Assembly (NCBI GenBank): GCA_947588855.1
Contig: CANQBN010000007.1
Location: forward strand, 1 to 33,101
Length of the DNA: 33,101 bases
Direction of reading: 5' to 3'
From: an uncultured Lachnospiraceae bacterium
GTDB taxonomy: Bacteria > Bacillota > Clostridia > Lachnospirales > Lachnospiraceae
In this document: positions 9,281 through 28,931 of the stretch, piece by piece
Layout of the letters: each line of letters starts with the position of its first letter
Position numbering within the stretch: position 1 is the stretch's first letter
Notes under the pieces: generated by a model
What the model was told of the DNA's origin: nothing
The model's input: only the letters and a program-made list of their open reading frames with translations
Databases searched by the model: none
Translations under genes and position numbers: made by a program

Positions 9281-9658
9281 TCATCCAACCATCTTCTTCA
9301 GCTTAATCACTTTATCATGTATATCCTCATCCTGGGCAATCGCCACCGCAACTCTGGATTTGACGCCCTGCAGGATCTCCTCGGCTTCTCTTCTCTGCTG
9401 AACAATAATACGATTCGCCTCATCCTGAAATTCATTCAGCTGCGCTTCCAACTGGCTGATCCTCAGAGACGTACGGCTGCTCAATTCGTCATAATCGGCT
9501 TTATATGACTCAAGTTCTTCCTGCAGTCTGTTAATTTCATCATTCCTGGTTAACTGCAATTTCTCATTCTCTTCCTCGAGTTTCTCCACGTATGTCAGAA
9601 CGTCGTCCCTGCGGAATCCTCCGAATAATACTCTTCTAAACAGCACCGTACTCTTCAT
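9281..9658 (-). CDS. Short DivIVA-like coiled-coil protein (DivIVA-like B)
   Basis: LFRRVLFGGFRRDDVLTYVEKLEEENEKLQLTRNDEINRLQEELESYKADYDEL: DivIVA-type N-terminal F...GF...DV..Y...L motif plus coiled coil. Confidence 0.65.
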   Translation of the reverse strand: MKSTVLFRRVLFGGFRRDDVLTYVEKLEEENEKLQLTRNDEINRLQEELESYKADYDELSSRTSLRISQLEAQLNEFQDEANRIIVQQRREAEEILQGVKSRVAVAIAQDEDIHDKVIKLKKMVG

Positions 9659-9710: not shown

Positions 9711-10613
9711 CTAACCATGCATAAATTTGATAATCTTGCTGTGCGCGTCCCTCTCACTGTCCGAAAGGGCCCTTTCCGCATCAGAAAAGATGTCGTCAAG
9801 CGCTGCTGTCAGAGAATCCCCCGCCCTACGACCAACAGACTGCATATCCTTCAAATAATCCTGCCTGGCTTCCGATTGGGGCTCTGACTGCTCTTCCGGA
9901 ACCATCTGCGTACTTCTGGACTCAAGTTCATAACTCAGATTTTCCAGCATACTCTCTTTCTCGGTGATATTCGCTTCTAATTCTGATATCCTGGCCGCGC
10001 TTACCTCAAGCTGCACATTTAATTCGCGCGATTCGGATAAAGCCTGCTCCAGCTGTTCCTCCAGCTCCTGTATCCTGACATCTCTGCTGTGCAGAGCCTG
10101 CTCCAGTTCTTCCTGTTTCTCTCTGGTTTGCTGAAGCAGATCCGTTATATTGTCCTTTAATTTAGCAACCACGATCTCCGATTCTTTCTTCTGCCTGGCA
10201 ATGACCATCCTGGCATCCGTCTGCACCTTAAAAATCCGGCCGCTGTAATCCGTATTCGGCTGGGAGCTGGAAGCAAATTTCTTCGACAGCTCTGCCTTCT
10301 GCTCCTCCATAAGCCGAAGCTGCCTCTTCAGATCAGCCTCTGACATCTGCGCTTTTCGTAAATCATCCTTCAGAGAGGCAATCTCCCCTCTGTCTGCGGG
10401 TCCCTGGAACAACTTCTTCTGTTCCTCTATGGTGCTCATCGCTTCTTCCAGCTTCTGGTTACTGTCACTCAGGGCCAGCTTCAGCTTCTCTTTTTCAACT
10501 TCCAGATTCTCTATGTAATCAATTACATCTTCTTTCCGAAAACCGCCAACCACTGCCTTCCGGAATATCGTTGATTCCTCCATAACAATCCCGCCTTTCC
10601 GTGAACTTTCCAC
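9711..10613 (-). CDS. DivIVA-like coiled-coil protein (DivIVA-like A; likely start MEEST at 10583)
   Basis: IFRKAVVGGFRKEDVIDYIENLEVEKEKLKLALSDSNQKLEEAMSTIEEQKK; N-terminus closely parallels the 9281-9658 product. Confidence 0.65.
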   Translation of the reverse strand: MESSRKGGIVMEESTIFRKAVVGGFRKEDVIDYIENLEVEKEKLKLALSDSNQKLEEAMSTIEEQKKLFQGPADRGEIASLKDDLRKAQMSEADLKRQLRLMEEQKAELSKKFASSSQPNTDYSGRIFKVQTDARMVIARQKKESEIVVAKLKDNITDLLQQTREKQEELEQALHSRDVRIQELEEQLEQALSESRELNVQLEVSAARISELEANITEKESMLENLSYELESRSTQMVPEEQSEPQSEARQDYLKDMQSVGRRAGDSLTAALDDIFSDAERALSDSERDAHSKIIKFMHG

Positions 10614-12406: not shown

Positions 12407-14395
12407 TCACCGAAGGGTATTCAATATCTGCCGCTGATTCACCGCAAACACGGATCTCCTGTCGTTGAAAAATTCCATGAATCCGTCAATCATCTCGTGT
12501 CCGTACAGGCTCCCGTCGCCGTTGACCGCCTTTACGTAAGGAACGTGGAACAGCTCCGCGTTGTTGGTCCAGGTGAGGAAATAACTGGCTCCGGTACCGG
12601 ACAGGACGTTCAACACCTTCTCAAACCACTGTTTTTCCGGATTGCCGGAACGGTTCAGAGCCGTAGCCACATCGCCCTGGGCGGGGACTGTGCGCATGAT
12701 TCCTGTTTCCGTTACCGCGAAAACCTTGCCGTGCTGACTGGCAAACTGCTGCGCCGCGGATACTTCGGCCGCGAATTTGGAAAACCAGGGGCCGCTGTCC
12801 GCTCCCGGATCCTTGTAATACATGTCAAATCCAATCACATCCACATAATCGTCGCCGGGATACCTGCTGCCGTAAGCCGCCACCGAGCCCTGGGTATTGT
12901 CGCCGTCAACGCTGTACACATAGATCAGATTGTGAACCTGTTTTGTATCCCGCAGATATTCTACCGTATATTGAAACAGCCTCTGATAGGTGGCCGCATC
13001 GCAGCCGGAGGTGCCCCACCAGAACCAGTTCCCCGTTCCCTCATGGAATGGCCTGAACAGGATCGGGCCGTTCACCTGCCCCGCGTAATCGGCAATCATA
13101 TCCAGATAAGCGTTAAATTTCTCGTTGCAGGCTCCGCCGGGAAGAATCTGATGAGCAGGATCCCCGCTTTGATCCCTGGCAGAAGAACCTGCGAAATTGT
13201 ATTTCGCATAAGAGGGTCCCTGCCCCGGCTTGTATCCAGAGGCCTCCGGAACCTGAACAAAATCAGGCATATGGCAGGAAAGGGTCACCAGCGAGCCTCT
13301 GCTTATAGCCGCATTGGCCACAGCCGCCGCCGCCTTTACATTGGCCGCGGCGGTTCCAAGGCCGCCTGCAGATATAGCCGGCAGGCCGTTTCGCGCCGCA
13401 AAACCTCCGTTGTACTGGGAGGCACTGAATTCCTGCCCGGTCAGGGACAAGGCGTCCATGCCCATGATTCCCGCATTGGATCCGGTTATATCCTCCACAT
13501 CGGACCCGGTCAGGCCTTTCTGACTGTCAGGAGCCGCTCCGGCCTTGCTCCACAGTTCATCTTCCATCCCGAATATCACATGATCTGTGGCTCCCACAGC
13601 TCTCAGATAAGCGTATGTCTTCACCGCGGCAGCCGTCGCCTGTTTATCAGCCAGGCTCACCTGACTCCAGTCTGCCGAAGACTGGCCTCCGCTTTCCGTA
13701 ACCAATGTGGTTCCGGAGAGAGACAAGGAAGTCCCATCGCCTCGTCTGACGGTGGAATTTACAGAATGTCCATCGCCTACACTGGCCTGGTCATAGGTAA
13801 AATACGGATTCTCGATGGCAATCTCTCCTGCGTAACTGCACCTGCGGCCCACGAAGAAGATCCTGACCTTCTTAACAGGCTGTTTTACCGCCTGGCTGTA
13901 GGGAACGGAACCAACCCACTGGCCGTTCACATTGGCTCCTACCGTATCGGAAAAAGGAATCGACACTGTCGCCCTGCTGTAAGTTTTCCCATCAATAGAG
14001 ACGGTCCCTGAAAAATCATCGGCCACAAGCTCCGCCACAGTATTGGACTGGGCCCACTCCTGGCTGCTTCCCAGAAGAAGCACCGCCAGCACATGGATAC
14101 GGCCCTCAAAGGAGGGCCTGCCGCCGGAAGACGGAACCAGAACGTTCATGGCCAGGGTGATGCCCTGCCTGGGCGTCTCCCCTGTGGTGATGTTCAGATC
14201 CCACTGGTCGCCGTCCATGTCCCAGGTATTATTTTTATCAAAACTCACCCCGTAAGAGGCGGAAATTTCTCCCTCTGCCGCTTCCGCGCAGCTTCCCGGG
14301 CCGACACTGACTGCCGCCATAATAAGTCCTCCCGCCATTATGCCGCCGGCCATCCTGCGCAGCCATCTGAATCTCCCGCCCGTCTCTATTGCCAT
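12407..14395 (-). CDS. Secreted glycoside hydrolase family 26 (beta-mannanase-like) with N-terminal carbohydrate-binding-like region
   Basis: Signal peptide; ILFRPFHEGTGNWFWWGTSGCDAATYQRLFQYTVEYL (acid/base Glu), YVDVIGFDMYY, KVFAVTETGIM (nucleophile Glu); N-terminal beta-rich region. Confidence 0.88.
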   Translation of the reverse strand: MAIETGGRFRWLRRMAGGIMAGGLIMAAVSVGPGSCAEAAEGEISASYGVSFDKNNTWDMDGDQWDLNITTGETPRQGITLAMNVLVPSSGGRPSFEGRIHVLAVLLLGSSQEWAQSNTVAELVADDFSGTVSIDGKTYSRATVSIPFSDTVGANVNGQWVGSVPYSQAVKQPVKKVRIFFVGRRCSYAGEIAIENPYFTYDQASVGDGHSVNSTVRRGDGTSLSLSGTTLVTESGGQSSADWSQVSLADKQATAAAVKTYAYLRAVGATDHVIFGMEDELWSKAGAAPDSQKGLTGSDVEDITGSNAGIMGMDALSLTGQEFSASQYNGGFAARNGLPAISAGGLGTAAANVKAAAAVANAAISRGSLVTLSCHMPDFVQVPEASGYKPGQGPSYAKYNFAGSSARDQSGDPAHQILPGGACNEKFNAYLDMIADYAGQVNGPILFRPFHEGTGNWFWWGTSGCDAATYQRLFQYTVEYLRDTKQVHNLIYVYSVDGDNTQGSVAAYGSRYPGDDYVDVIGFDMYYKDPGADSGPWFSKFAAEVSAAQQFASQHGKVFAVTETGIMRTVPAQGDVATALNRSGNPEKQWFEKVLNVLSGTGASYFLTWTNNAELFHVPYVKAVNGDGSLYGHEMIDGFMEFFNDRRSVFAVNQRQILNTLR

Positions 14396-14497: not shown

Positions 14498-16015
14498 TTA
14501 TGCTTTCCGCAGAACCTTCCGCGCGATTTTTTTCATTTCCGCAAATTCCCTCGTTTTCAGAGAGAACAGAAGGAACAGGAGATTGGGAACAACGCAGCAG
14601 ATCATGCCGCGCGATATCAGCTCCGCCCATCCTTCCAGCGTTACCAGACCGCAAAACAGCTCCGTTACAAGACACGCCGCTATCGTAGCTCCCGTATAGA
14701 CCAGCAGGCGGAGCACATACGGCTTCATGCTGCAGTGAAACAGCTTGCGATGAATCATCCAGGTCTGCCAGGGATAGGTGATCACCAGCAGAGACAGGAT
14801 GGTCGACAGCAGAACGCCTTCCACGCCGATCACCTGCACCAGAATCACATTGGCAATTAAATTAAACAGATTCGCCCCATAGGAACGCCACATATCCTCC
14901 CTCCAGAGTCCCGCAGCGTCCTTGTACGTGCTCTGAACGATCTTCAGCTGAAATACGTAAAAATATACGCAGAACCAGACGACCATTCGCTTTCCAAACA
15001 GCAGGTTCTCGCCGGCCCAGAGCCGGATGAAAGGCTGATACAGACAATACAGACAGACCGTACACCATCCGATGAGCCAGGCGTTGATGTATGACAGGTT
15101 CATGTAATCCCTGTAATTCTTCTCCGGCGTCTCCAGCACGATACTATTGCCTACCGTCGACTGAATGGAACTGAATATGACCGCTATAATCGCGATCAGG
15201 GCATCCATGACATAATAATAGTTATTGTATTTCGCCAGCGCCACCAGACCCAGGAAGGAAGAGATCACTACGCTGTCCACGGAATTATAGATAAGCGCGG
15301 TAATCTTAACGCCCAACAGGGCTCTTGTCTTCCTTCCGATTTCTCTTTGCGTTGCCTTATCAACCGCTCCCCTGCATTCATACTGAGGATAATACCGTCT
15401 GGCCAGATACGCCGTGATCAGATTCGTTAGGATCGATATCCCGGGGATCACCAGCACAAAACAGTAATAGTTGCGTATGGTAAGCAGTATGACTATCTGG
15501 ATCAGATTCTTCGCCAGATTCGTAACCATGCTGACCATCGATGGGATATCGTTCCGCTGATGAGCCGTCAGGATAGAAGCACGATAGGCAAAGAAGAAAT
15601 ACGTCGATACCGTATCCAGCAGATAGATCAGAAAAAGAATGCGTACGTTGACGTCCGCCGGCACACTGCCCGCGATCAGATGCGGAACGAACGGAAGAAG
15701 GAGCAGACCGACTCCCAGAATAACGGTTCCTATGATCCTGTATATCTTCCTGTACAGGCCAAGCAGGGCGCAGACCATTTCCTCATCGTTTTCCGCTACC
15801 GGTTTGTACATGCTGTATGTGATTGCCGTACCGAACCCCAGATCCGCCAGACTGAGGATCCGCAGCACGGAGCTGAACAGACTGTTAAGTCCCAGATATT
15901 CCGCCCCCAGGGTGTAGATCATGACGGTTCTGGCAATGAATGAAACCACCAGCGTAGAAAACTTATAGACCAGTCCCCACTTGATGTTTCTGGCCGCGTT
16001 TCTCGTTCTTCCCAT
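14498..16015 (-). CDS. Oligosaccharide flippase (Wzx-like, MOP superfamily)
   Basis: NIKWGLVYKFSTLVVSFIARTVMIYTLGAEYLGLNSLFSSVLRILSLADLGFGTAITYSMYKPVAENDEE: Wzx N-terminus, polytopic. Confidence 0.93.
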   Translation of the reverse strand: MGRTRNAARNIKWGLVYKFSTLVVSFIARTVMIYTLGAEYLGLNSLFSSVLRILSLADLGFGTAITYSMYKPVAENDEEMVCALLGLYRKIYRIIGTVILGVGLLLLPFVPHLIAGSVPADVNVRILFLIYLLDTVSTYFFFAYRASILTAHQRNDIPSMVSMVTNLAKNLIQIVILLTIRNYYCFVLVIPGISILTNLITAYLARRYYPQYECRGAVDKATQREIGRKTRALLGVKITALIYNSVDSVVISSFLGLVALAKYNNYYYVMDALIAIIAVIFSSIQSTVGNSIVLETPEKNYRDYMNLSYINAWLIGWCTVCLYCLYQPFIRLWAGENLLFGKRMVVWFCVYFYVFQLKIVQSTYKDAAGLWREDMWRSYGANLFNLIANVILVQVIGVEGVLLSTILSLLVITYPWQTWMIHRKLFHCSMKPYVLRLLVYTGATIAACLVTELFCGLVTLEGWAELISRGMICCVVPNLLFLLFSLKTREFAEMKKIARKVLRKA

Positions 16016-20457: not shown

Positions 20458-21585
20458 TTATCTCCTGCCCTGCAGGATACGATCTATGATTTCCAGATAA
20501 CGGTCTGCGGATTTTTCCACAGAAAAATCCAGGCTCCTGCTTATCAGCTTTTCCTTGTCCGCCTTTCGGGATACCGCTTTCTTTATGCCCTCCGCCAGGG
20601 CGCGGCTGTCGTCTGTCGGAACCAAAGTGCCGTAAACCCCGTCTCCCAGGATTTCCCTGGGGCCCGAAGGACAGTCCACGCTCACAATGGTGCTTCCGCA
20701 GGCCAGGGCCTCGATAAGGACCGTGGGAAGCCCCTCAAACCTGGAACTCAACACTACACAGTCTGCCGCCGCAAAATAGGCGTAAGGGTTATTCACATAT
20801 CCTCTGAAATCCACCCATTCTTCTATATGCAGACGGCGGCACAGCTGCCTCAGTTCCTCCTCCAGCTCTCCGATTCCCAGAAGGATCAGCCGCCAGTCTC
20901 CCTCCCTGCGAAGCCGATGCAGAGCCTGAAGCATCAGCTGATGGTTTTTCTGGTAGGACAACCGTCCTGCCAGCACCAGGGTCTTCCAGCTTCTGGGCCT
21001 CTCAAGCCAGGGATGTCCGGTCTCTTCCCCGGCCATCTGAAAAATCTCCTCAAAGACAACCGGATTATAGGCCGTAAAGACATGGCTCTCATCTGCCCGG
21101 CAGAGCCGGATATAATCTTCTCTGACCGCCTCCGACACGGCGATCACCCCATCCATGCTTTTGTCCATAAGTGGGAAAAGCATATTGCGGATTTTCTGGA
21201 AGCTGTGGGTCTCCTGGGACAGAGTATTATGTATAACGGCCGCTACAGGCATCCGGCCGGGATTCAGCCAGGACGCAACCATGGCCACCTGACTCATCTC
21301 CGCCGTTACGCAAAGGAGAATATCAAATTTCGCCTTTGCCATCAGCTGCCGCAAATAAATCACATTTTTCAGATTCTTGCGTATTTTGGAGGTCTCGGAT
21401 ACCTTCATATCCAATACTGGGATTCTCTCATCCAACAGCCGGCGCGTCTCCCCCCTGTCGTACCGGACGCAGAATACCACCTTATGCCCCCGACGGTGAA
21501 GCTCATTAGCCAATATCACCGTCATTTTCTCAGCCCCGCCGCCGTCAAAACGATGCATGAAGATACAGATTCTCTTTACAGCCAC
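20458..21585 (-). CDS. Glycosyltransferase family 4
   Basis: FDGGGAEKMTVILANELHRRGHKVVFCV...LVLAGRLSYQKNHQLMLQALHRL...VLSSRFEGLPTVLIEALACGSTIVSVDCPSGPREIL. Confidence 0.96.
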   Translation of the reverse strand: MAVKRICIFMHRFDGGGAEKMTVILANELHRRGHKVVFCVRYDRGETRRLLDERIPVLDMKVSETSKIRKNLKNVIYLRQLMAKAKFDILLCVTAEMSQVAMVASWLNPGRMPVAAVIHNTLSQETHSFQKIRNMLFPLMDKSMDGVIAVSEAVREDYIRLCRADESHVFTAYNPVVFEEIFQMAGEETGHPWLERPRSWKTLVLAGRLSYQKNHQLMLQALHRLRREGDWRLILLGIGELEEELRQLCRRLHIEEWVDFRGYVNNPYAYFAAADCVVLSSRFEGLPTVLIEALACGSTIVSVDCPSGPREILGDGVYGTLVPTDDSRALAEGIKKAVSRKADKEKLISRSLDFSVEKSADRYLEIIDRILQGRR

Positions 21586-22853
21586 GTACTGATCTCCCTC
21601 TCTTTCTCAACCTGTTCCTCAAAATGATGTCCCATTATCAAAATCGCCATGGGGATATTTCCATAGAAGAGAAAATACATATTTTCAGAAAAAAAGGTAA
21701 CATAACAGAAAACAGTTATCGTAAAGGCAATAATGCCCAGCGTGGTATTGCGGGACAGAAACAGCCGGATTCTCCAGACAAACATGGCCAACAGCCACAG
21801 AAGATATCCCAGGAAGCCCTGCTCGATAAACTGCCGCAGAAAGTCATTATGCATATCGCCAAGAAGACTGCCCTGAATACCCAGATCCAGTTCGCCCGTC
21901 TGTATCATTTTGGAAACATACCCCAAACCTTGCCCCAGATAAAATGGGCTGAACTCGTAAAGAGATCCGGCGTTCGCATATACAACGGTTCTTCCCATGG
22001 TATCGATCCCCAGCATATCTGTCAGCATCTCATAAAGTCCTGACTTAATCATCCATACATAGACAAAACCCACAATAATCAGAAGCAGTCCGCCGAAACT
22101 GACGAGGGCTTTTCTGCCGCCATCACGGGCAAAACGGAGAATCAGTCCAACCACCAGAGCGATGATCAAGGCCATTGAGGCACTCCGCTTAAACTCCATG
22201 ATAAAAAACAGAACCGCTACTGCAAGCGCCAGAACATCCCGCTTGCGGCCCTTGTTAAACAGTATAAAATACACGATATACATACCAAAGGCATAAGTGT
22301 GTCCCGTCTCCTCCATGCGTTCCATCAACTCGCCTGTCTCCATAGCGACAGTGGCTATAAGCGTCCTGAACTGACTGATGAATTCGACCACGCCTCCATC
22401 CCGTATGGCAGCAACCATAGTAATGACACTGGCCAGAGCAAGGCCAATAAAATGATACTCAATCCCTCTGTCTCCAAATAGATAGAGAGTTGACGCCGCC
22501 ACCATAATAGCCAGTATCTGATAGACAGAAAAGAACGTGCCGCGGATGATAACGTTGGGCGCCGACAGATCCAGCACCCAGACGATCATCGAAATGAATA
22601 CGTTAAGGAGATATGGCATGCAGAGCCACAGCATATATTTCACCAGCAGCCACGCCCGAGGTACCTGGGGATTGATGAGAAACGCCAGGAGCGCTATCCC
22701 GATTATGCCCATTCCAAGCAGATACATATACATGAATGTAAAGCCGCCAATGGTCACGCCGAGCGGGTTCCAGTTCAGCGCATTGTACATTAGCGCCGCC
22801 AAAACTACATAAATGGTAAAAAGCAGTCCTGTTCTAATCTTCTCCCAAAGCAT
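21576..22853 (-). CDS. O-antigen ligase/polymerase-like membrane protein (Wzy candidate)
   Basis: Polytopic; FSPFYLGQGLGYVSKMIQTGELDLGIQGSLLGDMHNDFLRQFIEQGFLGYLLWLLAMF is the typical Wzy-type loop. Confidence 0.85.
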   Translation of the reverse strand: MLWEKIRTGLLFTIYVVLAALMYNALNWNPLGVTIGGFTFMYMYLLGMGIIGIALLAFLINPQVPRAWLLVKYMLWLCMPYLLNVFISMIVWVLDLSAPNVIIRGTFFSVYQILAIMVAASTLYLFGDRGIEYHFIGLALASVITMVAAIRDGGVVEFISQFRTLIATVAMETGELMERMEETGHTYAFGMYIVYFILFNKGRKRDVLALAVAVLFFIMEFKRSASMALIIALVVGLILRFARDGGRKALVSFGGLLLIIVGFVYVWMIKSGLYEMLTDMLGIDTMGRTVVYANAGSLYEFSPFYLGQGLGYVSKMIQTGELDLGIQGSLLGDMHNDFLRQFIEQGFLGYLLWLLAMFVWRIRLFLSRNTTLGIIAFTITVFCYVTFFSENMYFLFYGNIPMAILIMGHHFEEQVEKEREISTWL

Positions 22854-22883: not shown

Positions 22884-23495
22884 TTATTTACATGATTCGC
22901 TGCATGAACCAGAAACCGTTTGATCTGATATATGCCGGTGATCAATGTAATTTTCTGTGGCGTTGTCTCTGTGCCTGATTACGCAGGGATTACCCAAAAC
23001 GATAGAATGGCTGGGGACATCGCAGTTTACGTAAGCATTCGGCGCGATCAGCACGTCGTCTCCTATGGTGATTTTTCCGACGACAGTGGAATTGATACCG
23101 ATCCATACCATATTGCCGATCGTGGGCGTTCCCTTCCTCGCGCCGCGGTTCTCCTGCCCGATGGTCACGCCCTTGTGGATATTGCAGTTTTCGCCAATCA
23201 CCACGTCCGAATTGATGGTAATGCAAAACGGGTGTCCGAGAAACAGGCCCTTTCCGACAGCTAATGACGGAGAAATTTCAAGATGGTGACTTCTGCAATG
23301 AGACAAAAATCGCAATTTGTAGTAATTTTTGCTCAGCGGATTCCTCGCCGTCTGGCATTTCCGCAGGAAATAATGAAATTTCCGGGTGTATGTTCCTCGA
23401 AGAAATGCCTTTATCCCCGTGCCGTCATTTTTGTATCGTTCCATATCCGCGAGATACAGTTCCCTGAACGCTTTCCCCATATCAGCCTCCATCAA
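22884..23495 (-). CDS. Serine acetyltransferase-like hexapeptide O-acetyltransferase
   Basis: LAVGKGLFLGHPFCITINSDVVIGENCNIHKGVTIGQENRGARKGTPTIGNMVWIGINSTVVGKITIGDDVLIAPNAYVNCDVPSHSIVLGNP. Confidence 0.92.
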   Translation of the reverse strand: MMEADMGKAFRELYLADMERYKNDGTGIKAFLRGTYTRKFHYFLRKCQTARNPLSKNYYKLRFLSHCRSHHLEISPSLAVGKGLFLGHPFCITINSDVVIGENCNIHKGVTIGQENRGARKGTPTIGNMVWIGINSTVVGKITIGDDVLIAPNAYVNCDVPSHSIVLGNPCVIRHRDNATENYIDHRHISDQTVSGSCSESCK

Positions 23496-23497
23496 AT

Positions 23498-25534
23498 TCA
23501 GGCTTCCTTTATCACCGGTTTTACATTATGCAGCGCATTGACCAAAAGCAGCTTGATCCGGTATACGCCGGAGGTCTTGGACTCGGCCATCCCGCACTCA
23601 TACTCAATCTTGCAGTCTGCAGTGGCATTGTATCCTTCGGCCTCGTTTTTCAGATACTGCGCGTAGGCGTCCATATGCTCCTTCGACATATCCTTTGAAT
23701 AGATAATATACTGTCCCACGCCATTAAGAGCGATAAAGCAATCGTCACTCTTCGGATAGACTTCCTTGATAATACTGTTAAATTTCAGCATCATCTTATC
23801 CATAGCTTCTCTGCCGTAAGCGGCATTCTTCTCCTGTATCCGAATGAGTCTGAGAACAATACATCCGAAATCATCGGGAAGCATACGGTTGGCGTAAGTC
23901 TCCATAAATTTATCACAGCCGACACGGTTGGGAAGATCGAACTTTCTGTCTCTGTATACATAGTAATCCACAATATCTCCCAGACGTCCCAGAATGATAG
24001 CCGCCACGCAGAATACGCACAGGAAAATGACAACTACCATTGCCGCGTACAAAAGGATCCTTTGATTGGCGACTACGATAATATTGCTGAGCAGGCTGAT
24101 GTTGGAAGCTCCGCAAAAGGCATTGAATTCCTTATTTACTTCCATCATGATCTCATACAGATGATTGGTCTTATTCACCAGCTCGGAAACCATGGCCGCA
24201 GCCGTATCAAGAGCCTCCTGGGAGGCTTCCGCGTAAGCGCCGGTTGTGACCGGGAGCGCCTCTTCCGCAGCAGCTGCTTCCGCGCCTTCACCGGGAACCG
24301 CTGCCTCTTCTGCACTTTCACCGGGAACCACCGCTGCCTCTCCCGCCTCCGCGGCAGAATCCGCCGGGGCGCTTATTCCCTCGATTCCCTGTATGTTCAG
24401 GGCATCCCCCACATTGGCTCCATCTCGATAGATACCAAGTATGTACTCGCAATAGGCTATGTCAATAAGCGCCCACTCATAATCTTCCCTTTCGTCTACA
24501 TAGTCCTTCATCAGGACATCATATTCGACCGTCTGATCAATCCGTTCCCTGCTCTGACTCTGCTCCTGATCCTGGCTTTGATTTTGGTTCCCGTCCTCCC
24601 ATTCATCATAAACGTCATCCAGAATATACTCGTAGGTAATACCGGTATTGCCGGACTCTCTCATCATACGCACATACGAATCAATAACCCGGTCAATGGC
24701 CTCGATCTGAGTCTGACTGGCATTATTGTCCAATCCGTAATTCTCTATACGGTTCTCATACTTGGCGATCAGAGCGTCCCTGTTCTTCGTCACCTTATTA
24801 TTCAGGATATAGGCATAGACATTGGACAGTTCCACATCCTTCAAATAAGCGAATTCCCGATACAGATCCATGAAAGAATAACCGTTGACCGACGCACGGA
24901 ACGTATTATTCTCATTAAAACTTTTGCTGATACCCGCCAGGACACTTTCCAGGGAATCCTCCAGGATCTCCGCCATCTCCAGATAATCGTAATTTCTCTC
25001 ATCCAGACCGGAAATATCGTTTGCGGCCATCAGGTTGTTAATATGCTTCTCTCCGTAATTCTCAATATAAATGTTCAGAAGATTATCCAGTACCTGTCTG
25101 GCAAACGCCTCGGGGTTATCGGAATCCGACTGAAGGGCCTCAAAAGAGACATAATATTTTGTGGGCTGAGCGGTGGACTGCTCTCCGGTAGCGTTCACCG
25201 CTTCCTGGACAGCTTTGTCCTCATCCGTCACAATTCCAGTCACCGTTACTCTGGAACGCAGGTCGTCCAGATTATACTCGCTGTAGTCCAGCCCCATCTC
25301 TTCAAAAACACGGGTCATGGCCTGGGAAGAATAAATCTCCGACACATCAATCACGCTTCCGTCCGGCGCATAGCCCTCGACTGCACGGTCGTTTGTATAA
25401 CTAATGACCGCAGACGCCGTGTAAGTCTGTTTCGCCTGCATGTATATATAGAAAATCAGACCGGCCAGAAGAGACAAAACGATAATCGGTATTTGATACT
25501 GCTTAATATAGTCAAAAACGCGAAATCTTTTCAT
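23498..25534 (-). CDS. Wzz-like chain-length/co-polymerase protein with C-terminal degenerate GGDEF-like domain
   Basis: N-terminal TM, long extracytoplasmic region starting TASAVISYTNDRAVEGYAPDGSVIDVSEIYSSQAMTRVFEEMGL, second TM (LLYAAMVVVIFLCVFCVAAIILG), then DRKFDLPNRVGCDKFMETYANRML...NGVGQYIIYSKD...IEYECGMAESKTSGVYRIKLLLVNALHNV. Confidence 0.78.
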   Translation of the reverse strand: MKRFRVFDYIKQYQIPIIVLSLLAGLIFYIYMQAKQTYTASAVISYTNDRAVEGYAPDGSVIDVSEIYSSQAMTRVFEEMGLDYSEYNLDDLRSRVTVTGIVTDEDKAVQEAVNATGEQSTAQPTKYYVSFEALQSDSDNPEAFARQVLDNLLNIYIENYGEKHINNLMAANDISGLDERNYDYLEMAEILEDSLESVLAGISKSFNENNTFRASVNGYSFMDLYREFAYLKDVELSNVYAYILNNKVTKNRDALIAKYENRIENYGLDNNASQTQIEAIDRVIDSYVRMMRESGNTGITYEYILDDVYDEWEDGNQNQSQDQEQSQSRERIDQTVEYDVLMKDYVDEREDYEWALIDIAYCEYILGIYRDGANVGDALNIQGIEGISAPADSAAEAGEAAVVPGESAEEAAVPGEGAEAAAAEEALPVTTGAYAEASQEALDTAAAMVSELVNKTNHLYEIMMEVNKEFNAFCGASNISLLSNIIVVANQRILLYAAMVVVIFLCVFCVAAIILGRLGDIVDYYVYRDRKFDLPNRVGCDKFMETYANRMLPDDFGCIVLRLIRIQEKNAAYGREAMDKMMLKFNSIIKEVYPKSDDCFIALNGVGQYIIYSKDMSKEHMDAYAQYLKNEAEGYNATADCKIEYECGMAESKTSGVYRIKLLLVNALHNVKPVIKEA

Positions 25535-27009
25535 CTTTTACTTTCCTCCGCTGCTTCTCCTTTTCTATCGATTCTTTCCGTTCTTACACGTCTCCTGTTC
25601 CTGCCTCTTCTTTTTCTTTCTGTGCCTCCGTGGGTTGCGTAAGCAACAGAACGGCTTCTTCCGTTCATCGCGATGATCAGGATGCAGAACGCAATGGCGA
25701 AAACAGCCGCAAGAATGACGGCTCTGCTGATTTCCGTTCCGATACGGGTCGTACGGCCGGAAACAACACTGACATAATTATTGGTCGTTTTCCTGTCATA
25801 ATCCGCCAGCGTATCCACAAGAAGCTTTGAGAGAACCTGATACTCATTCACTAAAGCTTCCAGCATATCTTCTACCTGGGCAATCTGACCGCTCCCATTG
25901 CCTGAAGCCTGCATCTGAGCGATGGCATAATCATTAAACTGTATTTTGTGCTGCCGATCGGCGGCGGACTGCATGGATACCTCGGCGTTCTCGGCAAAAT
26001 AGTCGACGCCGATCTTTGTCCTGGACATATAGAATTCCCCATCCACATCCTCGCTGGGAATCAGGACGATCGTCGCCATATCCCTCTCATACCGGTCTAT
26101 GGCAGCCAGATTGATATTGTGAGTCGCCACATCCTTCAGATATTCCTCATGAGTAATGGTATTATCATAGTTCAGCTTTGCCACATACTGGTTGACATTT
26201 TTGGCAAGGCCGTGGGAGAGGATAAACGCCTGAAAGCTTTCCAGCTGCACGTCCCGGAATGACTGGACTTTCTCGGTAATGGAGGAAAATGTCTCTCCTG
26301 TGGTCTCCGACTGAAAAGCGGCAGCCACAGCCGACATCGCGTAAGCATAATCCGAGATATCTTCCGCCTTCCTGTCAAACAACTCTACAATATCCAGATA
26401 ATCCATATTCTCCAGCTCGGAAAAGTCCATCGTCAGAACATTCGTCTTCCTGGAATACGTGTTGACAAATTCACGGCAGTATACCTGGGCCACCGAATCC
26501 ACCACATCGGCAGGCTTTAAGTGCAGCGTGTTTTTATTTGCCTCATAGGTCAGCTGATATTCCGCAGACATATACACCTGATTTGTGGATATGGAGTCTC
26601 CGGCGTTCAGAGGCATTACCTTAAAGCACCGCTTCAGATCATCTACGCTGACATTATTCAGATTTCCCTCCGTAATGGCTTTTTCCAGAATCCTGTCGGA
26701 AAGAATCTCTGAGATATTAAACCGGGTGCTGTTGGGATTCAGGCCGCTGGAAGCTTCCGGATAATTAAATCCGATAATAACCGATGCCTGCATGGCTGTC
26801 TCCATCTGCTTTACTCCCAGGTAAATTCCCCCGTACGCTGCCGCGAGAATAAGGACCGGTATCATCCTCCTCTTCAACGCGCGCAGTCCGTTCTTGGTCA
26901 GGTCAAGAAGATTTTCCTTACCCTGCCCCATAATAAGAATCAACGCACCCAGGATGATTACAACCGGAACAGCCATCAATACATACTTTAAAAACTGAAT
27001 GACCATCAA
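25531..27009 (-). CDS. Wzz-like chain-length/co-polymerase protein (no kinase domain)
   Basis: N-terminal TMs; MQASVIIGFNYPEASSGLNPNSTRFNISEILSDRILEKAI resembles the Wzz N-terminal region; second TM near C-terminus and basic tail. Confidence 0.72.
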   Translation of the reverse strand: MMVIQFLKYVLMAVPVVIILGALILIMGQGKENLLDLTKNGLRALKRRMIPVLILAAAYGGIYLGVKQMETAMQASVIIGFNYPEASSGLNPNSTRFNISEILSDRILEKAITEGNLNNVSVDDLKRCFKVMPLNAGDSISTNQVYMSAEYQLTYEANKNTLHLKPADVVDSVAQVYCREFVNTYSRKTNVLTMDFSELENMDYLDIVELFDRKAEDISDYAYAMSAVAAAFQSETTGETFSSITEKVQSFRDVQLESFQAFILSHGLAKNVNQYVAKLNYDNTITHEEYLKDVATHNINLAAIDRYERDMATIVLIPSEDVDGEFYMSRTKIGVDYFAENAEVSMQSAADRQHKIQFNDYAIAQMQASGNGSGQIAQVEDMLEALVNEYQVLSKLLVDTLADYDRKTTNNYVSVVSGRTTRIGTEISRAVILAAVFAIAFCILIIAMNGRSRSVAYATHGGTERKRRGRNRRRVRTERIDRKGEAAEESKR

Positions 27010-27027: not shown

Positions 27028-27924
27028 TTATGAATGGCTGATATCTATTACAACAAGCTCAGGCTTATTGTTAATCCTTGGCAAATGTCCGTGACCTCCC
27101 AGACCTCTGCTTACAATCAGAGTCCCATGGGTCAGGGAAAATTCACCGTAACAATACTTAGGGAAGAAACCTTCATCCACATGATACAGACCTCTCCCGT
27201 CAGGAAGCCTCACCTGACCTCCGTGAAAATGTCCCGCGACGCCCAGATCGAAATCCACATCCGCCAGGCAGTCGTAGTAAAGGGCCGGAAAGTGGGTGAG
27301 CAGAAGCTTAAAGCCATCTTTTTTCTCAAAGGCGGATACGGCATCCCCCGCAACCTCCTCATAATCGTCCGTCCCGGCCGTCACTCCCGCAATTTCAAAA
27401 GGATTTCCCCTTATCTCTGTACTTATGGAATTATTGTACAGGACCGTCACTCCCTTCTCCAGAAGGACTGCGTCCAGGGCTACCTGAGGCCCGCCTTCCG
27501 CATATTCCAGAGTACCCTCGTTATTGCCGAATATGTAATAGACCGGCGCCGTCTTAAGAAGCTTCCCGCACAGATCCGTTGCGATCGTTATGTTCGGGTC
27601 ATCTCCGTTCACCATATCTCCGGCCATAACGATAATGTCCGGTTTCAGCCTTTCAATCTCCTTGACAAGATCCCGATTGGCCCTTCCAAATTCATTATTA
27701 TGGAGGTCAGTCAGCAAGATGAGCCGTACCGGTTCCTGAATCTTAGCGGAAGACACCCGATAGAACGTAGTCTCAAAGGTATCGTCGTCTGAACATTTCC
27801 ATATAATAATTCCGGCGGTCAGCACTACTGCCAGTAATAATAAAATTACCGGAAAGCAGCCTCTGAACCGCCGTCTTCTTTTTTTTCTTATTATGTATTC
27901 CTCATCCATCGCATTAATTTCCAT
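27028..27924 (-). CDS. Calcineurin-like metallophosphoesterase, membrane-anchored, YkuE-like
   Basis: TM anchor; LILLTDLHNNEFGRANRDLVKEIERLKPDIIVMAGDMVNGDD...YYIFGNNEG...LLLTHFPALYYD...GVAGHFHGGQVRLP. Confidence 0.9.
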   Translation of the reverse strand: MEINAMDEEYIIRKKRRRRFRGCFPVILLLLAVVLTAGIIIWKCSDDDTFETTFYRVSSAKIQEPVRLILLTDLHNNEFGRANRDLVKEIERLKPDIIVMAGDMVNGDDPNITIATDLCGKLLKTAPVYYIFGNNEGTLEYAEGGPQVALDAVLLEKGVTVLYNNSISTEIRGNPFEIAGVTAGTDDYEEVAGDAVSAFEKKDGFKLLLTHFPALYYDCLADVDFDLGVAGHFHGGQVRLPDGRGLYHVDEGFFPKYCYGEFSLTHGTLIVSRGLGGHGHLPRINNKPELVVIDISHS

Positions 27925-28052: not shown

Positions 28053-28931
28053 TTATGCGTTGGCGTCGCTGTCAGACGCATTTTCATTCTTAACATCGGA
28101 CGATTCAATAAATTCTCCATCGATAATATTCTCAAGCCGCAGCGGCATGCCTTCCACCAGACGGCCTAACTGATTATAGGTATCCACAAGCTGGGTCTGG
28201 TATTTATTGAGCGACTTAAGATATTCCTTAATTCTATGCTTGGCGATAATATGCCGTTCCTCTTCCTCTTTCCAGCGTTCCTTAATCTTCTCTTCCGCTT
28301 CCTGCTGGCATAACGCCGCCTTCTCTTCCGCTTCCCGCTGACACAGCATAGCCTTCTCTTCCGCTTCCTGCTGACACTGCAGCGCTTTCTCCTTCGCTTC
28401 GTCAACAATCTTATCCGCATTGGCTTTGGCATCCGCCACCACCTGCGCCTTTTCCACCTCGGCATTGGCAAGAACTACCGCAAGCATGGCAAACTTCTTG
28501 TCATAATCCTTCATCTTCTCCTGCAGCTGGCTATCCACGGGATTCGCGTCAAATGACTGCTCCACCTGGCGTTCCCTTGCTTCTTTCGTAAGCCTGTCAA
28601 CCTGGCTCTCCAACTCCATCAGCTGTAACTGAAGATCTGAATTTGCAGTCCGGAGACTGTCTCTCTCAGCCTGGAGACTGTCCCGCTCGGCCTGGAGGCT
28701 TATATTCTTCGTCTTCAGATTATCCATCTCAGACTGAAGGCCGTTCTTCTCCATCTGCAAGTTATCCATCTCAGATTGAAGCGCTTCCATTTTACCTTTA
28801 AGCTCAGGATTCTCTTGATTGATTCCGGCTACACTGGAGAGTTTATTCAGCTTCTCCGTCAGCATTTCTATATATTCGTCAACTTCATCCTTGTTATATC
28901 CCATAAACAATGACGTGCGAAATCTTTCCAT
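28053..28931 (-). CDS. DivIVA-like coiled-coil protein (DivIVA-like C)
   Basis: MERFRTSLFMGYNKDEVDEYIEMLTEKLNKL (DivIVA-type N-terminus), heptad-rich LQSEMDNLQMEKNGLQSEMDNL and tandem KAxxCQQEAEE repeats. Confidence 0.75.
   Translation of the reverse strand: MERFRTSLFMGYNKDEVDEYIEMLTEKLNKLSSVAGINQENPELKGKMEALQSEMDNLQMEKNGLQSEMDNLKTKNISLQAERDSLQAERDSLRTANSDLQLQLMELESQVDRLTKEARERQVEQSFDANPVDSQLQEKMKDYDKKFAMLAVVLANAEVEKAQVVADAKANADKIVDEAKEKALQCQQEAEEKAMLCQREAEEKAALCQQEAEEKIKERWKEEEERHIIAKHRIKEYLKSLNKYQTQLVDTYNQLGRLVEGMPLRLENIIDGEFIESSDVKNENASDSDANA
28285..28383. repeat. Three tandem 33-bp (11-aa) repeats inside DivIVA-like C
   Basis: ATCTTCTCTTCCGCTTCCTGCTGGCATAACGCC / GCCTTCTCTTCCGCTTCCCGCTGACACAGCATA / GCCTTCTCTTCCGCTTCCTGCTGACACTGCAGC. 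Confidence 0.85.

Follow-up and report, generated by a model that had tools for sequence, protein, structure and literature searches.

Synthase-type exopolysaccharides are switched post-translationally by c-di-GMP, and the EAL-domain proteins FimX and LapD are receptors. YdaK and PelD belong to exopolysaccharide systems other than the one considered here, and neither is known to be joined to a protein of the Wzz type. Among polysaccharide co-polymerases, those of the PCP-1 class are not known to carry a large cytoplasmic domain. In PCP-2a proteins a tyrosine kinase follows the second transmembrane helix (TM2), and both the assembly of the ring and the length of the chains depend on its state of phosphorylation (PMC12220298). 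Binding of c-di-GMP by YdaK requires the arginine of its I-site (PMC7064775). The post-translational control of Wzx/Wzy pathways was described in a 2025 paper as incompletely understood (PMC12802240). Both elements of the gene analysed here are already known separately: catalytically dead GGDEF receptors occur in exopolysaccharide operons (YdaK, PelD), and co-polymerases can carry cytoplasmic regulatory domains (Wzc). What appears to be new is the combination of a co-polymerase with a dead GGDEF domain. Among the papers searched, nothing relevant to a Wzz-GGDEF or Wzz-EAL fusion came up, in agreement with the first-pass annotation of this DNA, which knew of no described example.

Architecture of the fusion gene

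The window, by which I mean the whole analysed stretch of 33,101 nucleotides from an uncultured Lachnospiraceae bacterium (contig CANQBN010000007.1), contains an open reading frame of 678 aa at 23498..25534, on the minus strand like all of its parts given below. Its translation and its homologues of the same architecture mark it as a Wzz-type co-polymerase with a C-terminal degenerate GGDEF domain. Hydropathy places TM1, which is also a helix in the structural model, at about aa 14-34 (25433..25495), and TM2 at aa 492-516 (23987..24061). Between them lies the predicted extracytoplasmic co-polymerase domain (aa 35-491; 24062..25432), delimited from the model, from Foldseek and from Pfam Wzz matches in relatives; two transmembrane helices flanking a large extracytoplasmic domain, as found here by hydropathy and in the model, are what is expected of a co-polymerase. 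The tail of the protein, aa 528-678 (23953..23501), follows TM2 and is occupied over aa 528-672 (23519..23953) by the degenerate GGDEF domain, which is identified below from Pfam, relatives, model and fold search. The linker from TM2 to this domain carries a conserved juxtamembrane motif, GRxxDxxxY (G516, R517, D520, Y524; 23963..23989). Provided that the basic N-terminus (MKRFRVFDYIKQYQ) is inside, aa 517-678 are cytoplasmic. The extracytoplasmic domain also contains an Ala/Glu/Pro-Gly-rich, repeat-like insert (aa 383-431; window 24240-24390), the length of which varies among relatives that are 74-77% identical.

Pfam Wzz (PF02706) found no match in the window protein itself; among 22 proteins homologous to the N-terminal part, 9 matched it (best 2.8e-7), and several relatives combine a weak Wzz match with a strong GGDEF or EAL match within one protein. 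When the model of aa 1-519 (pLDDT 76.8, with aa 297-334 and 383-431 of low confidence) was submitted to Foldseek, the top 11 matches were all Wzc or Wzz-type co-polymerases, Wzc being the best (4e-4, prob 1.00) and WzzE (prob 0.99) and KpsE coming next; the TM-scores are low, about 0.2, so that the superfamily is supported and not the exact co-polymerase class. The gene also adjoins Wzy and Wzx in a polysaccharide cluster, the context in which a co-polymerase is expected. The tyrosine kinase that would assign it to PCP-2a or PCP-2b was found neither in the protein, whose C-terminus is GGDEF-like, nor alongside it, and no BY-kinase above the family cut-off is encoded on the contig of the fusion cassette in the genomes checked. 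As judged from sequence and predicted structure, the window gene product is a polysaccharide co-polymerase of the Wzz/Wzc type.

The first-pass annotation had proposed a Wzz-type co-polymerase that continues into a degenerate GGDEF domain, and had suggested checking the fold of the C-terminal 150 aa and looking for the architecture in other genomes. The GGDEF-layout motifs that it quoted are all present, and hydropathy confirms that the tail follows TM2. Searched alone against Pfam GGDEF (PF00990), the window tail scored 19.7 bits (E=7.8e-4), under the cut-off of 23.8, so that the single sequence is suggestive and it is the relatives that settle its identity as GGDEF. Homologous fusions match the same family in the same place above the cut-off, with 24.5-34.8 bits in one set and 45.9-67.1 bits in another, and 44 of the 45 members of the domain alignment match it. 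Searched against the PDB, the family profile found 56 chains (best 4e-22), which to judge by their names are GGDEF proteins. The AlphaFold model of the tail domain, predicted from an alignment from which one plasmid-record row was left out, has a mean pLDDT of 94.0, and GGDEF structures account for all 50 PDB matches listed in a fold search with this model (best 4e-10). A non-GGDEF fold for the tail was rejected on these grounds, and the proposed fusion stands on the Pfam matches of the relatives, the PDB profile, the model and the fold search taken together. It might be objected that the resemblance is spurious or the fusion an artefact of assembly, since the window protein by itself stays below the Pfam cut-off. 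The architecture recurs, however, in 31 distinct fused proteins across many genera and in a complete plasmid record, and both the model and the fold search return GGDEF; I count this objection as already refuted, with a residual chance that is negligible.

Residues kept and lost in the GGDEF-like domain

The 31 distinct fused proteins (32 GGDEF rows) have a mean pairwise identity of 37%. In every one of them the catalytic Glu of GG[DE]EF is replaced: most have Gln instead, and one clade has Ser or Asn. This Ser/Asn clade still has Asp at the position of the first metal Asp, where the window protein has Arg and the fusions outside the clade have Arg, Lys, Gln or Thr. Most fused members lack the residues that bind phosphate and metal. 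In the alignment, the window protein has NGVGQY (23708..23725, minus strand) in place of the GG[DE]EF loop, and both the metal and the catalytic acids are gone. The loss of catalytic residues had been read correctly in the first-pass annotation. Retained diguanylate cyclase activity has the intact GGDEF fold in its favour, but with Arg at the metal Asp and GVGQY at the loop in the window protein, the metal Asp mostly replaced in relatives and the catalytic Glu replaced in all fusions, I rejected this possibility as next to impossible.

The same annotation went astray over the I-site, which it placed approximately at KSDD. This segment is out of register: nine residues before the GG[DE]EF position, where RxxD would be found, the window protein has SDDC (23738..23749, minus strand), and RxxD is absent from the window protein and from every fused member. 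YdaK needs its I-site arginine (PMC7064775), and since KSDD is not an I-site, the parallel with YdaK that had been drawn does not carry over at that level.

Across the 31 fusions only 11 columns are at least 96% conserved: G516, R517, D520, Y524, N536, R537, D541, N570, D579, N604 and L663. The juxtamembrane GRxxDxxxY motif is 97-100% conserved at this mean identity of 37%. N570 (23825..23827, minus strand) and D579 (23798..23800, minus strand) are, by conservation, the equivalents of the guanine-binding Asn and Asp: Asn occupies the first column in 30 of the 31 distinct fusions and Asp the second in 31 of 31, and each is present in 12 of 12 canonical cyclases. I take the two to correspond to N335 and D344 of PleD, which bind the guanine base in active cyclases. 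The fusion tail is, by homology and in the model, a catalytically dead GGDEF domain, and the residue pattern reads as that of a dead enzyme in which selection still acts on the base pocket rather than as that of an I-site receptor. The Asn and Asp could instead be kept for folding.

The tail might also bind no nucleotide at all and act as a protein-protein module, for example in packing the ring or in docking a cyclase or some other regulator. Degenerate GGDEF domains can work through contact with a partner, as YdaK does with DgcK (PMC7064775); the I-site is lost here, and the conserved GRxxDxxxY segment and N604 lie outside known catalytic chemistry. However, without a ligand it is difficult to see why N570 and D579 should be retained almost perfectly at a mean identity of 37%, and the occurrence of two different c-di-GMP-type domains at one position, described below, argues for a common ligand. 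I consider a purely protein-binding role unlikely.

Cassette and EAL sister lineage

Directly upstream of the fusion gene, and overlapping it by 4 bases, is a plain Wzz-like paralogue (25531..27009) that is homologous to its N-terminal part and has no tail. The third member of the cassette encodes a putative membrane-anchored metallophosphoesterase (27028..27924; Pfam Metallophos 9.8e-11). A hexapeptide acyltransferase gene (22884..23495; Pfam Hexapep 1.2e-11) lies between the fusion and the candidate Wzy polymerase (21576..22853; Pfam Wzy_C 9.1e-11), and a candidate Wzx flippase (14498..16015; Pfam Polysacc_synt 6.5e-12) belongs to the same cluster; these five genes are all on the minus strand. 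Besides the Wzy_C protein and the Wzx-type flippase, the cluster holds an initiating sugar transferase and glycosyltransferases. It also includes a member of glycoside hydrolase family 26 (12407-14395), which has a signal-like segment at its N-terminus and may trim the polymer. Three DivIVA-like coiled-coil proteins are encoded in or beside the cluster (9281-9658, 9711-10613 and 28053-28931), one of them with a weak DivIVA match; genes of this type adjoin some related cassettes as well, which might point to placement at the pole or septum.

When the co-polymerase part was searched across the class, 56 of 392 genomes had matches, and these matches together with the loci collected earlier comprise the 32 GGDEF rows (31 distinct), 12 EAL fusions and numerous plain copies. 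The architecture occurs widely in Clostridia and sits in a conserved cassette made up of the plain Wzz paralogue, the fused Wzz, the metallophosphoesterase and usually Wzy. The metallophosphoesterase is found at most four genes away from 28 of the 32 GGDEF-fusion rows, as is Wzy, and the metallophosphoesterase and the plain paralogue adjoin all 10 of the EAL fusions counted; the plain partner is never fused in the relatives examined. On the complete plasmid record of Monoglobus pectinilyticus the fusion has Wzy, the plain paralogue and the metallophosphoesterase as neighbours. The distribution of the cassette within the window's own genus is patchy: it occurs in 6 of 26 genomes, and in the five besides the window's own it is likewise the GGDEF form that is present. 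The metallophosphoesterase at 27028-27924 is tied to the Wzz pair as tightly as Wzy is, across Clostridia. In one fusion homologue (L011, G272:C1:80625-81998) a stop codon interrupts the co-polymerase part.

The EAL form was seen in genome G482, which is congeneric with two genomes carrying the GGDEF form and whose homologue has an EAL domain at its C-terminus (aa 494-716 of 721; Pfam 2.4e-35). The EAL domains of the sister fusions have Pfam values from 2e-35 to 5e-60 and are placed where GGDEF sits in the others. Ten of the 12 have neither the second Asp of the metal pair nor one Glu, and ExxxR, N, E, K, E and Q are present in every one of the 12; the EAL domain of L243 retains all residues examined, and that of L253 has DN for DD. 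In a tree of 126 co-polymerase parts the GGDEF fusions form one clade (SH-aLRT 100) and the EAL fusions another (97), both within the same paralogue lineage, so that each form traces back to a single origin. A more careful tree of 60 rows supported the two clades at 100/100 and 99/97, respectively, and rejected GGDEF and EAL fusions as a single clade (AU p=0.00043). Since the joint clade is rejected, c-di-GMP-type domains were probably gained twice after TM2, and two independent gains are the simplest reading of the tree. A single gain of a tandem GGDEF-EAL unit followed by losses is disfavoured by the same rejection and by the start of the EAL domain just ~25 aa past the co-polymerase part.

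Standalone proteins of ~235 aa with transmembrane helices and a GGDEF-like domain were considered as a split version of the fusion and rejected, as the seven loci examined have no polysaccharide-cluster neighbours; the one scanned with Pfam adjoins T2SSF and T2SSE genes. They belong to a large family (L160-L165, e.g. L162:8760-9446; L013-L035) with two transmembrane helices and the motif GGN[KE]F, in which the catalytic Asp has become Asn and the Glu often Lys. The L162 protein lies next to T2SSF, T2SSE and a transglutaminase-like gene, and like gene runs occur at other loci; these proteins, too, are probably dead GGDEF receptors, in this case belonging to a pilus or secretion system.

Proposed ligand and comparison with known systems

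Building on the observed fold and homology, on the catalytic and I-site residues lost or retained, and on the cassette and the phylogeny, I propose that the window gene encodes a co-polymerase of the Wzx/Wzy pathway whose dead GGDEF tail gates it as a receptor for a nucleotide, probably c-di-GMP; I lean towards this reading, at slightly better than an even chance. c-di-GMP would be recognised by what remains of the active-site pocket (N570, D579), not by an I-site, and its binding would alter how the cytoplasmic domains pack in the co-polymerase ring. The GRxxDxxxY linker and TM2 would relay this change to the extracytoplasmic domain and to Wzy, with a resulting shift in chain length or output. 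Both ring formation and contact with Wzy are assumptions taken over from Wzz/Wzc. The lack of the I-site that YdaK uses and the patchy occurrence of the cassette even in the window's genus count against the proposal. Since PCP-2a proteins have a kinase after TM2 and the cassette contigs of the genomes checked encode no BY-kinase above the cut-off, the GGDEF- or EAL-like domain is proposed to stand in the kinase's place: a nucleotide-gated tail may substitute for kinase control at the very site where Wzc bears its tyrosine kinase, and the EAL sister lineage appears to work likewise. The wider proposition, that Clostridia have a class of co-polymerases gated by c-di-GMP through dead GGDEF or EAL domains after TM2, gained twice and replacing Wzc-type kinase control, is put forward tentatively, its chances falling a little short of even.

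Allosteric control of polymerisation by c-di-GMP, as suggested in the first-pass annotation, is plausible, and more so because the sister lineage has an EAL domain at the same place; it is only by analogy, though, that this lineage speaks for the relevance of c-di-GMP. This nucleotide is proposed as the likeliest ligand, with GTP or ppGpp as the main alternative. In the metagenome-assembled genome (MAG) of the window, which is 94% complete, GGDEF was recognised in just two proteins (L001 and L002; G000:C4:5122-6261 and G000:C163:5262-6476). Each is a GGDEF-EAL protein, their degenerate GGDEF motifs reading VGVEF and SEDVF, and only one of the two EAL domains keeps the key residues. No canonical diguanylate cyclase was recognised in this MAG, and none of 7 DNA matches coding for GG[DE]EF falls within a GGDEF domain. 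I therefore do not accept c-di-GMP as a certain ligand. This reservation is softened by the canonical cyclases encoded in the congener G114, in the genomes from which the 74-77% identical fusions come (L003-L005) and likewise in the other fusion genomes inspected; since relatives have cyclases and the MAG is incomplete, the missing cyclase is weak evidence against c-di-GMP.

The same guanine pocket might instead let the dead GGDEF domain sense GTP or (p)ppGpp, tying polymer assembly to the energy or starvation state. Retention of the guanine-recognition pair in a domain that has lost both catalysis and the I-site is consistent with this, as are the absence of a canonical cyclase from the window's own MAG and the presence, among the fold matches, of GGDEF structures with ppGpp and pppGpp (PleD 9g85, 9g86). 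But most members have lost the phosphate- and metal-binding residues, other fusion genomes do encode canonical cyclases, and the sister lineage has placed EAL, a c-di-GMP domain, at the same site. I regard GTP or (p)ppGpp as an improbable ligand and retain c-di-GMP as the preferred one. Bacteria may, then, tune their sugar coats directly through c-di-GMP. If the proposal is true, it provides a direct and testable link from a second messenger to chain assembly in gut Clostridia, and it means that the cytoplasmic side of a co-polymerase can be re-equipped with different regulators, be they a kinase, a GGDEF-like or an EAL-like domain.

Of the sequences on record, WP_320691487.1 of Monoglobus pectinilyticus has the same architecture and the same neighbours (Wzy, plain paralogue, metallophosphoesterase) with a longer C-terminal tail; it is annotated solely as 'GGDEF domain-containing protein', its co-polymerase part being left unnamed. 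YdaK (PMC7064775) and PelD resemble the fusion in having a catalytically dead, membrane-attached GGDEF fold encoded in an exopolysaccharide operon, but YdaK depends on an I-site and the fusion has none. FimX and LapD are the counterparts of the EAL sister lineage, in which metal residues are gone but ExxxR, N, E, K, E and Q remain; unlike that lineage, they are not co-polymerases. To Wzz/PCP-1 (PF02706) the fusion is related through the Wzz matches of its relatives and the fold match to WzzE, although the window protein alone has no Pfam Wzz match. The PCP-2a protein Wzc of E. coli shares with it two transmembrane helices, an extracytoplasmic domain of alpha/beta and coiled-coil structure and a regulatory domain after TM2. 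Wzc is also its best fold match, and the difference between them lies in that last domain, which is a BY-kinase in Wzc and a dead GGDEF (or EAL) domain in the fusion lineage.
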